A DNA stretch of 64,000 nt. Source: Nitrososphaerota archaeon (GTDB lineage: Archaea > Thermoproteota > Nitrososphaeria > Nitrososphaerales > Gagatemarchaeaceae). Made by a program: the position numbers and the translations under genes. Positions 11,570 to 16,243 of this stretch are shown piece after piece (position 1 is the stretch's first letter; each line of letters begins with the position of its first letter). The stretch covers positions 62,001-126,000 of the forward strand of contig JAPCJI010000003.1 of the NCBI GenBank assembly GCA_027887005.1, in the 5' to 3' direction. The notes beneath the pieces are model-generated. The model did not search any database and was not told where the DNA came from. It saw only the letters and a list, made by a program, of their open reading frames with translations.

Positions 11570-11666
11570 TTCCGGATGACCTTCCGACCTTAGCCTAGCC
11601 CACGCGCTAAAAGTCTTCTCGGGCCGAGGAGGCCCCGGACCGGTCTTTGGGAAGGTCGAGCACTTT

Positions 11667-11674
11667 CCTTATAG
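11667..11674 (+). promoter_or_regulatory. TATA box for the DUF929 gene
   Basis: CCTTATAG would place transcription start near 11697. This is downstream of the TTG at 11647 and therefore argues for a start at TTG 11713 or ATG 11725. Confidence 0.4.
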
Positions 11675-11724
11675 ACGGCATCCTCAACGCCATTGCGAAT
11701 GGTGCTGGCAACTTGAGAGCGAGG

Positions 11725-12579
11725 ATGAAGAGACGCCAGAGGATCAGGCGCATCACAATCGTCGGAACCATACTCATCGTCGGAGTCTCCCTGGCAGTGG
11801 GGATCTACCTCGTTTCGACGGCACAGAGCCCACTGGCGCCCAAGATAGGGACCCTGGTGGCCTCCCCTGACATGGCTTCGCTCTATTCGAGTTCCCTGGT
11901 AGTACCCTATGGGCAGCCCCCTGACAACGCGACGCTGCACTCTGTGATAAGTTCCACAGGTTCCCCCTATCTCTCAGGGACGAAACCTATCGTGGTCTAC
12001 ATTGGGGCCGAATTCTGCCCCTACTGCGCTGCCGAGAGATGGCCCCTGATCATCTCGCTCATGAGGTTCGGGAACTTCTCCAACCTGCACTACACCCTGT
12101 CGAGCGGGAGCGATGTGTACCCCAACTCGCCGACCTTCACCTTCGTCGGGAGCACTTACACAAGCAAGTATGTCGTCTTCCAGCCATATGAGAACGAGGA
12201 CCGGAACAGGAATCCCCTCCAGTCGGTGCCGTCTAACTACTCAGCCCCGTGGCAGGCGCACGGAGCAGGATACCCATTCCTGAACTTCGGCAACAGATAC
12301 ATCTCACCCGGCTCGACAGTGTCAAACACAATCTCAGGGGAGAACTGGACTCAAGTGCTCCGGGGGATAGCCTCCGGCGATTCTTTCGGCCTCCAAGTCA
12401 AGAAGTCGGCAAACCTGATGACCTCTCTCATATGCAAGCTGACCGATAGCCAGCCATCGAGGGTGTGCCACACCTACCCCATCGCCACCACCAGCAGCGG
12501 GATTGCCGCCCCAACAGTAGCGAGGGTTGGGATAGTCTCAGTCCCTTCAAGGGCGAGCGTGTCCCGCAACGAGGGATAG
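11725..12579 (+). CDS. DUF929 thioredoxin-like, membrane-anchored thiol protein
   Basis: With the ATG at 11725 the protein has 284 residues and begins KRRQRIRR followed by about 20 hydrophobic residues, a typical signal anchor. An earlier TTG at 11647 is in frame but lies before the TATA box. The extracytoplasmic part carries [19 protein letters not shown], a CPYC active site in a thioredoxin-like strand-helix context, and matches DUF929. The VKOR gene begins 4 bases after its stop. Together they look like a DsbA/DsbB-like pair that forms disulfides in exported proteins: the CPYC protein as thiol oxidant and VKOR as its quinone-linked re-oxidant (inference from context). Confidence 0.8.
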
Positions 12580-12583
12580 GCAC

Positions 12584-13105
12584 TTGAGAATCTCCCGTCT
12601 GAAGCTCCTCCTCCTGGTCGCAATGTCGGCCTTCGGGCTGTGGGCGGCCTCCGAGGTGCTAATAGTCTACTACTACCTTCACCAGGCTCTTCCCCTTTGC
12701 ACCTCCCAACCGGGAGGCTGGTTTGTCTTCGATTGCAACGTAGTTCTCGGCAGTTCGTACAGCCAAATCTTTGGTATTCCCCTCGAACTCTTCGCGGTCA
12801 TCTACTTCATCGTCAACATCCTGCTCGTATTCACCATCGCATTCGCGAGCGCCCGGTCCGCTGAACGAAGTCTGGACATCCTGTTCGTCTGGAGGTTCCT
12901 CGGGGTACTGATTGTCCCATACCTTGTGTTCGTAGAACTCTTCCTTCTCAAAGCCATCTGCATCTACTGCACGATGATGCATGTGGCCATCGTACTCGAT
13001 TTCATCGTCATCAGCTATCTTCTCTACTACAGCAAGAATTCCTTGTTCGAGAACCCGTCATCGGTCGGCGCAGGACCCAACGAACCAAGCAAGGCTGCGG
13101 TCTAA
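12584..13105 (+). CDS. vitamin K epoxide reductase (VKOR) family protein
   Basis: A 173-residue protein with four to five membrane helices. The conserved cysteine pattern is visible: one Cys in PLCTSQ and one in FDCNV, the loop pair, and CIYC in the fourth helix, the quinone-proximal active site. SSYSQIFGIPLE matches the VKOR loop with its conserved Ser. The family passes electrons from a thioredoxin-like partner to quinone. Start is TTG at 12584, 4 bases after the DUF929 stop, so the two genes are co-transcribed and probably coupled. Confidence 0.9.
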   Translation: MRISRLKLLLLVAMSAFGLWAASEVLIVYYYLHQALPLCTSQPGGWFVFDCNVVLGSSYSQIFGIPLELFAVIYFIVNILLVFTIAFASARSAERSLDILFVWRFLGVLIVPYLVFVELFLLKAICIYCTMMHVAIVLDFIVISYLLYYSKNSLFENPSSVGAGPNEPSKAAV

Positions 13106-13545: not shown

Positions 13546-14016
13546 CTATCCTTCGATGTGATCGCGGATTGCGCGGACGAGCTTGGGGTCCTTCCGAAGG
13601 AAATCGACCAGTCCCTCGATCCTGCTGATCGTCACGGGCTGGATGTGATGCTCTATCCCCTCTGTATCCTGATAGGCCACATCGTCTTCCACGCCGAGCA
13701 TCAACAGCAGTTCCGAGATGATGCTGTGCCTCTTGATAACGGACTTCGCAATCCTAACACCCTTGTCGGTCAGCCTGATGCCCCGATAAGGCTCGTGAAC
13801 CAGATACTCCCTAGAGGCCAGCCTCTGAAGCATGCTTGAGACTGTTGGGGGTTTCACCCCGAGTCTCTCAGCGATGTCGACAGTGTTCGCGTAGCCCTTG
13901 TCATGTATCAGGTGGTAGATCACTTCAAGGTAGTCTTCCAGCCTTGAATGAGCTTCTTGCTGCTCCGTCTGGGTAACCCTTGCCAAATCGTCCCTCTTGA
14001 GAAAGCAGGCCTCCAC
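13546..14016 (-). CDS. DtxR/MntR family metal-dependent repressor
   Basis: A 156-residue protein. The winged helix spans roughly residues 20-80: SRLEDYLEVIYHLIHDKGYANTVDIAERLGVKPPTVSSMLQRLASREYLVHEPYRGIRLTDKG is the standard DtxR/MntR DNA-binding domain. The dimerisation domain follows with HSIISELLLMLGV and IEHHI, which supply metal-binding His and Glu positions. No SH3-like third domain is present, as in MntR. It starts with GTG at 14016; TTG at 13986 is an alternative. It is divergent from the MntH gene, with operator-like repeats between, so it probably represses Mn(II) or Fe(II) uptake when metal is plentiful (inference). Confidence 0.9.
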   Translation of the reverse strand: MEACFLKRDDLARVTQTEQQEAHSRLEDYLEVIYHLIHDKGYANTVDIAERLGVKPPTVSSMLQRLASREYLVHEPYRGIRLTDKGVRIAKSVIKRHSIISELLLMLGVEDDVAYQDTEGIEHHIQPVTISRIEGLVDFLRKDPKLVRAIRDHIEG

Positions 14017-14077: not shown

Positions 14078-14093
14078 GTTAGGTGCGTCTAAC
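14078..14093. promoter_or_regulatory. candidate metal-repressor operator, copy 2 (palindromic)
   Basis: GTTAG-GTGCGT-CTAAC has perfect 5-bp arms around a 6-bp centre, and its last base is shared with the MntH TATA box. DtxR-family operators often contain TTAG/CTAA arms. A repressor bound here would block TBP at the transporter promoter (inference). Confidence 0.6.
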
Positions 14094-14128: not shown

Positions 14129-15421
14129 ATGCACGTTCCTTGGAACAGGACTCTGAAGTCATCAGAGCAGCTCAAGGAGGAGAAACTTGAGCGGGCGCGC
14201 AACCGCATTTCCCTGCGCAACCTGTTCGTGTATCTCGGCCCAGCACTCATCGTGAGCATGGCCTACATGGACCCGGGGAATTACGGGACGGACATCCAGA
14301 GCGGGGCCTCCTTCGCCTACGACTTGTTGTGGGCAGTCTGGATGGCCAACCTCATGGCTATGCAGCTGCAGTATCTCTCTGGGAAGCTTGGAATCGCGAC
14401 CGGAAAGGACCTTCCAGAACTCATCCGTGGATCGCTGAAGCACAAGAAGTTCACAATCCCCTACTGGCTGGCGGCGGAGGCGGCTGCGGCCGCGACAGAC
14501 CTGGCCGAGTACCTTGGGACTGTCATCGCTCTCAATCTCCTGTTCGGTGTCCCACTTCTGTTCGCCGCCATCTTCGGGGCTGCAGACGTGATACTTCTGC
14601 TGGTCCTGATGAAGGAACGTTTTAGGGTCATCGAGTATTTCTTCATGCTCTTCGTTTCCGTGATAAGCATAGGTTTTCTCTATCAGGTAATCATCATTGG
14701 GCCAAGCCTTTCCGAGATAGCATACCACTCCGTGGCAATCTCCATCAGCAGCCAGACCATCCTGTTGGTAGTCGGAATAGTAGGTGCCACTGTGATGCCA
14801 CACGCGCTCTTCGTCCACTCCACCCTGACAAGGAACAAACTGACCACAGGAAGCATTGAAGAGAAGAGAAGGCACAGGCGACTGCACCTCAGGGAGGTCA
14901 TCGTTACCCTTACGCTCGCTGGACTTGTCAATGTAGCAATCCTCGTGTCGGCTGCCGCTGCTTTCCATCTCAACTACAGCGGGGTGTCCACAATAAACGA
15001 TGCCTATCAGATAATGGTGCCCCTCTATGGCTACCTGGCAGGCGCCGTGTTTGCCATAACCCTATTGGCCTCGGGCCTCGCTTCTTCGACTACCGGCACA
15101 CTCGCAGGCATTTCCATCATGGACGGACTCTTGGGCAGCCATGTTAACAAGAACCTCCGGAGGGTCGTGACGCGGCTAGTGAACGTGTTTCCCACCACTG
15201 CTGCGATCCTGATCGGACTCAATCCACTCTCGTTACTGATCTACAGCCAAGTGATCCTCAGCTTGATGATACCCCTACCGATGATTCCCTTGATAATCTA
15301 TACGAGCAGGAGGAGGGTGATGGGCGAGTTTGTGAACAGGAGGATTACCACAGTTCTGGGGATACTCTGTGCCATTACGATAATCTCTCTCAACATCGCC
15401 CTGCTCTACTCTGCACTCTAG
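14129..15421 (+). CDS. mntH: Nramp-type Mn(II)/Fe(II) transporter MntH
   Basis: A 430-residue membrane protein with about 11 helices. The two metal-binding motifs of the Nramp family are present: MDPGNYGTD in helix 1 (DPGN) near residue 49 and MPHALFVHS in helix 6 (MPH). Nramp proteins take up Mn(II), Fe(II) and other divalent metals together with protons. The divergent DtxR/MntR-type repressor and the palindrome over the TATA box suggest metal-dependent control. The next gene, on the same strand 93 bases on, is a Cys-rich CDF-like protein. Confidence 0.96.
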   Translation: MHVPWNRTLKSSEQLKEEKLERARNRISLRNLFVYLGPALIVSMAYMDPGNYGTDIQSGASFAYDLLWAVWMANLMAMQLQYLSGKLGIATGKDLPELIRGSLKHKKFTIPYWLAAEAAAAATDLAEYLGTVIALNLLFGVPLLFAAIFGAADVILLLVLMKERFRVIEYFFMLFVSVISIGFLYQVIIIGPSLSEIAYHSVAISISSQTILLVVGIVGATVMPHALFVHSTLTRNKLTTGSIEEKRRHRRLHLREVIVTLTLAGLVNVAILVSAAAAFHLNYSGVSTINDAYQIMVPLYGYLAGAVFAITLLASGLASSTTGTLAGISIMDGLLGSHVNKNLRRVVTRLVNVFPTTAAILIGLNPLSLLIYSQVILSLMIPLPMIPLIIYTSRRRVMGEFVNRRITTVLGILCAITIISLNIALLYSAL

Positions 15422-15517: not shown

Positions 15518-16243
15518 ATGTCTATGATGCCTTCGTCCTCAGGGTGTCAAACCTGCGGTTGCATTGAGACGTCCTGTGCAACCTGCCAGACTCCGGCCGA
15601 TTGCTCTTGCTGTGTCTCCTGTTGCTGCGACAACAATCATGTCGCCTGGAGGCGCATGAGGATCGGAACTGGGATTAGGGTCGAATATCTGAGCACAGCG
15701 TGGATGACGGTCGAGGCCGCAGGTTCCATCGCATTTGGTCTCATGGCTGGTAGCCTAGCTCTCCTAGCATTCGGTGGCGACAGCGTGATTGAACTAATAT
15801 CTGGTTTGGCCGTGCTTGCTTATCTGCGAAAGGATTCGAGCGGCACGGAAATGCATGGAAGCAGCCGAACCGCACAGGTCACGAGTGCCCTTCTCTTCGC
15901 GCTGATTCCAACGATCGGACTCGGGGCCACCTACTCATATCTTGCAGGACTCAGGCCGGAAGCCTCTCCACTCGGCATAACAGTGGGCATAGGAGCTGTC
16001 ATCATGATGCCCTATCTTTGGCTTCAGAAAAGCAGGATAGGCAGGGAGACGCGGTCTCTACCTCTTTCGATGGACGCGATAGAATCAGTCACATGCTTCT
16101 TCATGTCCATAGCCCTCCTCGGCGGCTTGGTCGTTGAATACCTCACAGGGCTCTGGTGGGTCGACTATGTCGCCACTGGGGTGATACTAGCCTTCGTGGC
16201 GAGAGAAGCTGTCGAATCATATCACGAACTGCACGCAGAGTAA
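15518..16243 (+). CDS. CDF-like cation transporter with Cys-rich N-terminus
   Basis: A 241-residue membrane protein. Residues about 10-37 hold 11 cysteines in CxC, CxxC and CCC clusters and resemble a metallothionein-like metal-binding segment. The rest has five to six helices; EAAGSIAFGLMAGSLALLAFGGDSVIELISG matches the early helices of cation diffusion facilitators, and DAIES later would be the second metal-site acidic segment. The usual cytoplasmic C-terminal domain is absent. It starts at ATG 15518 (a TTG 3 bases earlier is also possible) about 35 bases after CATTAAGA. It may export or sense a soft metal (inference). Identification as a CDF relative is moderate; the Cys cluster is plain in the sequence. 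Confidence 0.65.
   Translation: MSMMPSSSGCQTCGCIETSCATCQTPADCSCCVSCCCDNNHVAWRRMRIGTGIRVEYLSTAWMTVEAAGSIAFGLMAGSLALLAFGGDSVIELISGLAVLAYLRKDSSGTEMHGSSRTAQVTSALLFALIPTIGLGATYSYLAGLRPEASPLGITVGIGAVIMMPYLWLQKSRIGRETRSLPLSMDAIESVTCFFMSIALLGGLVVEYLTGLWWVDYVATGVILAFVAREAVESYHELHAE

Follow-up and report, generated by a model that had tools for sequence, protein, structure and literature searches.

CDF transporters without a C-terminal domain (CTD) are already known, according to the available parts of PMC7926707 and PMC4995437, and the latter cites Russell and Soulimane 2012, whose title reports that a CDF lacking the cytoplasmic domain binds Zn and Cd. One such protein, TMEM163 (ZnT11), is described in the available text of PMC7926707 as having DxxxD in TM2, a long N terminus, and a short C terminus. 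Metal-binding or Cys-rich segments of CDFs have been described as well: The accessible portion of PMC7428307 reports a metal-binding N-terminal motif preceding TM1 of ZnT8, and that of PMC1868760 reports Cys/Ser-rich regions in ZnT1-like CDFs. Here, we analyzed an archaeal gene that joins both properties, as it encodes a CTD-less CDF with a dense cluster of cysteines ahead of TM1.

Results

The window encodes a CTD-less CDF that ends with its sixth predicted helix

The window, that is, the whole stretch of 64,000 nucleotides that was analyzed, comes from an archaeal genome of 1.6 Mb (26 contigs, 96% complete). Translation of positions 15518..16243 on the forward strand, together with Pfam, AlphaFold2, and VIA-align analyses, revealed a CTD-less CDF-type transporter of 241 amino acids with six predicted membrane helices and a Cys-rich N terminus. 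The protein matched Pfam Cation_efflux (PF01545) over residues 61-233 with 46.9 bits against a cut-off of 26.6. No Pfam CTD model matched it, and residue 241 is the end of both the chain and the sixth predicted helix, which agrees with an earlier note on this DNA that described a short CDF-like membrane core without a CTD. TIGR01297, the NCBIfam model of full-length CDFs, gave 41.1 bits, below its cut-off of 82.35. Scored as a canonical full-length CDF, the protein lacks both the TM5 HxxxD/DxxxD motif and the CTD.

The AlphaFold2 model (pLDDT 87.1) was compared with solved structures. VIA-align gave Z 18.6 for ZnT7 (177 residues aligned, 2.7 Å) and Z 18.1 for YiiP, while the first 38 rows returned by Foldseek were all CDFs, 7 of them at E <= 0.001. 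As judged from the predicted model, the protein has the six-helix CDF membrane fold, in a comparison that barely covers residues 1-38. The mean number of Lys and Arg residues was 3.7, 3.4, 4.4, and 2.3 in the predicted inner segments and 0.2, 1.0, and 0.04 in the outer ones. This excess of Lys and Arg on the predicted inner side places the Cys module in the cytosol by prediction; the positive-inside pattern and homology suggest that both termini are cytosolic.

The N-terminal cysteine module is translated and conserved

Alignments A1 and A3 and codon counts delimit an N-terminal cysteine module at residues 10-37 (15545..15628, forward strand). Its cysteines occupy residues 10, 13, 15, 20, 23, 29, 31, 32, 35, 36, and 37, so that the 11 cysteines within 28 N-terminal residues reported in the earlier note are borne out by the translation. 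Among 518 six-frame open frames of at least 60 amino acids in the window, the runner-up 28-residue stretches contain 5. Given that Cys makes up 1.04% of the residues in the window's longest open frames, a binomial model puts the chance of at least 11 cysteines in 28 residues at 2.7e-15. This density and the binomial value rule out a chance or low-complexity Cys run.

The module is also conserved in homologs. Nine of the 11 cysteines are invariant across 23 aligned homologs, and of the 22 letters in the C32 column, 21 are Cys. C31 is found in the window protein alone, the same column being Asn in 18 of the 23 homologs; thus, the family motif comprises 10 cysteines, roughly CxxCxCxxxSCxxCx5CxNCxxCCC, and the window protein has one extra. 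H41, located right after CCC (15638..15640, forward strand), is present in 23 of 23 homologs and is a possible further ligand; W44 is invariant too. The nine invariant Cys columns are encoded by 148 TGC and 59 TGT codons in the 23 homologs, and this synonymous drift indicates that these residues are translated and that purifying selection maintains them.

The earlier note raised the concern that translation might begin after the cluster, which does not hold. An in-frame stop lies 7 codons ahead of M1 and four start codons all precede the first cysteine, which fixes the N terminus within a few residues. The next in-frame start after the cluster is M47. The short upstream frame, the position of M47, and the synonymous-only drift of the Cys columns together led us to reject a start codon downstream of the cluster.

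Modeled alone, the module reached a pLDDT of 56 (low confidence), as compared to 79-87 for its blocks in the full model. Pfam metallothionein families matched neither the window protein nor the 23 N-terminal stretches, and a Pfam search with the module returned nothing convincing. No known fold was recognized in the module either, as the profile search of solved structures gave just UBR boxes with E of 0.09 or worse, which we took as chance matches. When 61 genomes were scanned with a strict DNA pattern built on six Cys codons, 23 places matched, 19 of them inside this CDF gene; the remaining 4 (G033:C10, G046, G062, and G063) fell at low-complexity or stop-bearing places, and a reversed control of the pattern gave 7 matches. 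Thus, for the strict six-Cys pattern in these 61 genomes, looser forms being outside its reach, we discarded the possibility of a free-standing module outside the CDF gene.

A cysteine occupies the predicted transport site

Profile alignment with YiiP identified D88-xxx-E92 of TM2 (15779..15793, forward strand) as the counterpart of the site A Asp pair, and C193 of TM5 (16094..16096, forward strand) at the place of the site A aspartate. E189 and C193 align with the TM5 His and Asp of YiiP; in YiiP, the aligned TM2 and TM5 residues belong to the metal site. E66, D88, E92, D186, and C193 show no variation among the 24 archaeal and 17 bacterial members compared, and because C193 is invariant in all of them, the transport-site Cys marks the subfamily. 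Residue 189 is more variable, with Glu in 17, Gln in 4, and Ala in 3 archaeal proteins and Glu in 5, Gln in 8, and Cys in 4 bacterial ones. Four Bacillota members (L043, L044, L109, and L110) have Cys at both TM5 site positions (CxxxC), a still more sulfur-rich site.

We delimited the CTD-less TM5-Cys subfamily by the retention of E66, D88, E92, and C193 and by the lack of a CTD, and the window protein falls within it, as do all 24 archaeal and all 17 bacterial proteins compared. The subfamily is common to archaea and bacteria and apparently uncharacterized. By its aligned residues, the sulfur-containing transport site would fit soft metals.

Several bacterial relatives carry cysteines at the opposite end

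Bacterial members were sampled by tblastn of plasmids, which found 67 records, 17 of which were read, and by one pattern scan of genome contigs. The short bacterial "cation transporter" proteins (PF01545, 206-296 amino acids, n = 17) are likewise CTD-less and have the same invariant E66, D88, E92, D186, and C193; 7 that were aligned share 28-37% identity with the window core. A regulator gene of the ArsR/SmtB or winged-helix type directly precedes the CDF gene in 12 of the 17 plasmid records. In L109, one more CDF gene stands between the regulator and the gene, and four of the 17 records, whose gene table is incomplete, list no regulator. The N-terminal Cys motif is absent from all 17 plasmid proteins, and L117 alone has Cys before TM1 (three residues). 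Instead, the metal-binding residues of the bacterial proteins, where present, lie in the C-terminal tail, which contains at least 2 Cys in 8 of the 17 and at least 4 in 5 of them. Judging from these sequences, Cys appendages may have arisen at one end or the other of a shared core.

A core tree was built without the N-terminal columns and without an outside root. In it, a branch with support 100/100 sets apart the 24 Cys-headed archaeal proteins, and two cluster-less archaeal proteins (L038 and L079) grouped among the bacteria. Because the Cys-headed archaea occupy one side of this branch, the Cys head was probably gained once.

The fusion is spread across the lineage and lost in places

A protein search of 101 related genomes gave a match in 38. 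We left out G048, G053, G060, G072, and G099, which have conventional or cluster-less CDFs, as well as the degraded G015, leaving 32 genomes. The gene copies of these 32 genomes, of G123 from the class sample, and of G015 add up to 38. The cluster is present in 33 copies, some of which have 9 Cys (for example, L025 and L026). The others comprise two copies cut by contig ends, with the last part visible (G042 and G026), one intact core without the cluster in any frame (G038), and two degraded copies (G031 and G015). Thus, the same fusion, which the earlier note proposed to look for in other archaea, is found there, and an absence of the cluster from orthologs, which would have counted against it, is not general, G038 being the lone intact exception. 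The fusion is a lineage-wide variant of the CTD-less CDF subfamily and not an isolated curiosity.

The G038 ortholog (G038:C39; L032 and L066) shares about 60% core identity. A short-search tree nests it among the Cys-headed proteins with a support of 88, which is not strong, and this position points to loss of the cluster. Its frame extends into a further C-terminal stretch, and KdpA, KdpB, and a small Lrp-type gene lie nearby, as they do in the window. Broken copies were also observed, with a stop inside the cluster in G041:C74 (L034), a stop in G022:C2 (L017), a frameshift in G033:C5 (L036), and decay in G015:C1 (L040). Because the G022, G041:C74, and G033 copies are broken, although counted among the 33 cluster-bearing ones, the gene appears to be undergoing loss in places.

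Of the 31 genomes of the window's genus, 17 gave a Cation_efflux match, which is this gene in 16 and a conventional CDF in G016; G013 has a second, weak match of 80 amino acids. The other 14 genomes, some of which are incomplete, have no Cation_efflux match. Outside this genus, members of the family and order can have this gene together with a conventional CDF. Matches were found in 13 of 300 genomes of a class sample, including G048, which is cluster-less, and G015, where the gene is degraded, and in 21 of 300 genomes of a phylum sample, where 19 further loci, mostly ordinary CDFs, had no cluster. We found no viral or phage carriage of the gene.

Two further observations concern related frames. 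In JOPF051, between mntH and the intact CDF gene (L021:1618 onward, forward strand), there is a decayed second Cys motif, CxxCxCxxxxCxxC, followed by unrelated sequence and stops; its position upstream of the intact gene suggests an old duplication. In the same order, G092:C3, G077:C4, and G098:C1 (L098-L100) contain CDF-like open frames of 209-210 amino acids that match Cation_efflux and do not match the profile from alignment A2. These proteins are perhaps a separate CTD-less branch.

A proposed soft-metal exporter with a capturing head

On balance, we lean toward reading the protein as a proton-driven CDF exporter of soft divalent metals of the Zn and Cd type, whose cytosolic Cys module captures metal. 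A soft divalent metal is favored by the sulfur-containing site, the ArsR/SmtB habit of the bacterial relatives, and the Cys head. In the mechanism that we propose, the ten conserved cysteines and one histidine ahead of TM1 would form a small metallothionein-like site, which, by analogy, might hold perhaps three divalent ions. The module would capture or sense excess metal at the cytosolic entrance of the pore and so take over the metal sensing of the YiiP/ZnT CTD. It could raise the local metal level or switch transport, as the CTD is thought to do in longer CDFs. The metal would then be held by D88 and E92 in TM2 together with C193 in TM5, and its release on the outer side would be coupled to an exchange for protons. 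The fusion may act as a buffer plus transporter, the role suggested in the earlier note.

The same genome encodes two heavy-metal P1B ATPases besides KdpB. One (L118) is of the copper type, with 603.9 bits for TIGR01511 against a cut-off of 397. The other (L119) failed the copper model (360.1 against 397 bits) and passed a cadmium-family model (472.3 against 313.5 bits), and the window CDF, therefore, need not be the sole Zn/Cd exporter.

The mntR-mntH neighborhood and the question of manganese

The earlier note also named MntH and an MntR-type repressor as neighbors, and both assignments are confirmed by equivalog-level or family models above their cut-offs. MntH, an NRAMP divalent metal importer (14129..15421, forward strand), lies 96 nt before the CDF gene (Pfam Nramp, E 8.6e-102; NF001923, 443 bits against 430). 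The MntR-type repressor of the DtxR family (13546..14016, reverse strand) is divergent to mntH (NF003025 equivalog, 142.9 against 138). Farther upstream, at 11647-13105 on the forward strand, a DUF929 protein with a CPYC motif is directly followed by a VKOR-family membrane protein, likely a disulfide-forming pair.

A near-perfect palindromic box, TTAGGTGCGTCTAA (14079..14092), lies beside a TATA-like element before mntH and is a candidate MntR operator. A box as good occurred in 1 of 500 shuffles, for a pattern written after seeing the site. Weaker boxes before mntH in L021, L062, and L067 were matched by 56, 58, and 165 of 500 shuffles, respectively, and were dropped as support for MntR control. 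Solely the window's mntH box beats shuffles, and no box ahead of the CDF gene does so.

The gene order mntR-mntH-CDF is found in the window and in G027, and mntH precedes the CDF gene in JOPF051/G043. Divergent arrangements with the CDF gene occur for mntH in G084 and for mntR in G076. Most other loci have no neighbors in common with the window, and the neighbors vary between genomes. An NRAMP match is present in 27 of the 32 ortholog genomes and adjoins the CDF gene in 4 of these 27, with contig ends hiding some cases. The 4 adjacent cases belong to three separate core-tree branches (P0001 with L021; L025; L030).

These neighborhoods speak for a Mn (or Fe) efflux CDF of the MntR regulon, in which MntR would repress mntH and switch on the exporter, as in Bacillus MneP/MneS. 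Consistent with this, every position of the window MntR that aligns with the Mn ligands of B. subtilis MntR is identical. However, Cys clusters are poor ligands for Mn, and the low proportion of NRAMP-adjacent genes makes the link to Mn from MntH adjacency a weak one. As a further, weak point against it, the window, G027, G043/JOPF051, and G076 have no mntH-like box ahead of the CDF gene, and the weak boxes in G084 lie in a region shared with mntH. If the gene were co-transcribed with mntH, MntR would be expected to repress it at high Mn, a point against Mn export. The available part of PMC9993123 does describe B. subtilis MntR as an activator of the CDFs MneP and MneS. The pump site, though, is not of the kind that the available text of PMC4995437 describes for Mn-CDFs such as OsMTP8.1, with DxxxD in both TM2 and TM5: The window protein has DxxxE in TM2 and ExxxC in TM5, and the family has E/Q/A-xxx-C in TM5. 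We therefore regard a Mn exporter as unlikely.

The boldest reading, for which gene adjacency is the one piece of evidence, links soft-metal export to Mn import. Here, an exporter with a metallothionein head, gained once in this archaeal class, would stand beside a promiscuous NRAMP and strip Cd, Zn, and Co that enter with Mn, passing them via the Cys module to a Cys-containing pump site that would mark a separate soft-metal branch within the CDF superfamily. In addition to Mn and Fe, NRAMPs transport Cd, Zn, Co, Ni, and Pb, as stated in the available part of PMC10185341, so that an exporter of these ions beside mntH could clean up after import. Such import proofreading is, in our view, a long shot.

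Other roles for the cysteine module

Soft-metal export with a capturing head assigns the cysteines to cargo. They could instead be structural, forming a Zn-filled knot that joins the dimer or pins TM1 in lieu of the CTD, with no capture of cargo. The strict Cys spacing and the invariant H41 and W44 do suggest a defined fold, and the available text of PMC7428307 reports that the N-terminal HCH of ZnT8 binds Zn with the CTD of the neighboring subunit and that its deletion lowers transport. Nevertheless, the bacterial relatives and the G038 ortholog have no such module, and some bacterial proteins have Cys tails at the opposite end, a pattern that suggests an accessory metal-binding role and leaves a purely structural knot improbable.

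A Cu(I) carrier or copper-linked exporter, in which the Cys module would hand Cu+ to the thiolate site, seems quite improbable. Cys-rich modules bind Cu+ well, and one of two copies in G041 (L051) sits next to genes for an HMA protein, an Lrp-TRASH regulator, and a P1B ATPase that contains YHS; ATPase and HMA genes of these kinds also lie near the second copy (L050). However, this copper-type context is seen in G041 only, among 22 loci and the window, and the window genome already has the copper-type ATPase L118. In addition, the two acidic residues retained at the site suit divalent ions, and all CDF substrates known at the time of PMC1868760 were divalent, according to its available text.

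A redox sensor whose cysteines form disulfides, with metal incidental, might be imagined from the DUF929/VKOR pair upstream but is very improbable, as the module lies on the predicted cytosolic side and the 22 loci compared contain no relative of the window DUF929 or VKOR protein.

Discussion

Our analysis suggests a pared-down CDF branch, present in archaea as well as in bacteria, where a Cys replaces a transport-site acid and Cys-rich appendages at either end stand in place of the CTD. It opens two questions to experiment, namely whether metal can be sensed and loaded by a CDF that has no CTD and whether one site A thiolate shifts selectivity to soft metals. Poorly known archaea would gain a specific, assayable metal-handling protein. 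While the parts are known, both CTD-less CDFs and metal-binding CDF segments, the ten-Cys head on a CTD-less CDF appears to be new, as no such N-terminal fusion was found among the matches listed in a literature search that had subscription papers outside its scope.

Metallothioneins, including SmtA and the animal types, have densely packed cysteines in paired and triple spacing, and the module is alike in both respects, but it gave no Pfam match and is fused to a membrane protein. The six-helix CDF fold and the TM2 acid pair are common to the window protein and YiiP/FieF, a Zn/Cd/Fe CDF. In contrast, YiiP has a CTD, HxxxD in TM5, and no N-terminal Cys module, whereas the window protein has ExxxC and ends with TM6. 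MneP/MneS of B. subtilis, which are activated by MntR, are likewise CDFs tied to MntR/MntH, but no MntR box was seen before the window gene and its pump-site residues differ from those of Mn-CDFs.

MmCDF3 of Maricaulis maris and TMEM163 also consist of a CDF core with little or no CTD, a likeness drawn from their partially available descriptions and not from sequence, and the literature found, as far as its text was available, reports no Cys-rich N-terminal module for either. Compared in the same way by description, TMEM163/ZnT11 has DxxxD in TM2, where the window protein has DxxxE. The HCH motif of ZnT8 and the Cys/Ser regions of ZnT1-like proteins, as portrayed in the available parts of their sources, are also cytosolic metal-binding or Cys-rich CDF segments. 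However, HCH comprises three residues that work with a CTD, while the window protein has 10-11 Cys before TM1 and no CTD, and in the ZnT1-like proteins, these regions are found in a loop and at the C terminus, while the window module precedes TM1. Last, PacL1-CtpC of Mycobacterium likewise ties a cytosolic metal-binding motif to a metal exporter, according to the available text of PMC9374683; there, PacL1 is a separate protein that accompanies a P-type ATPase, whereas in the window, the cysteines are fused directly to a CDF.
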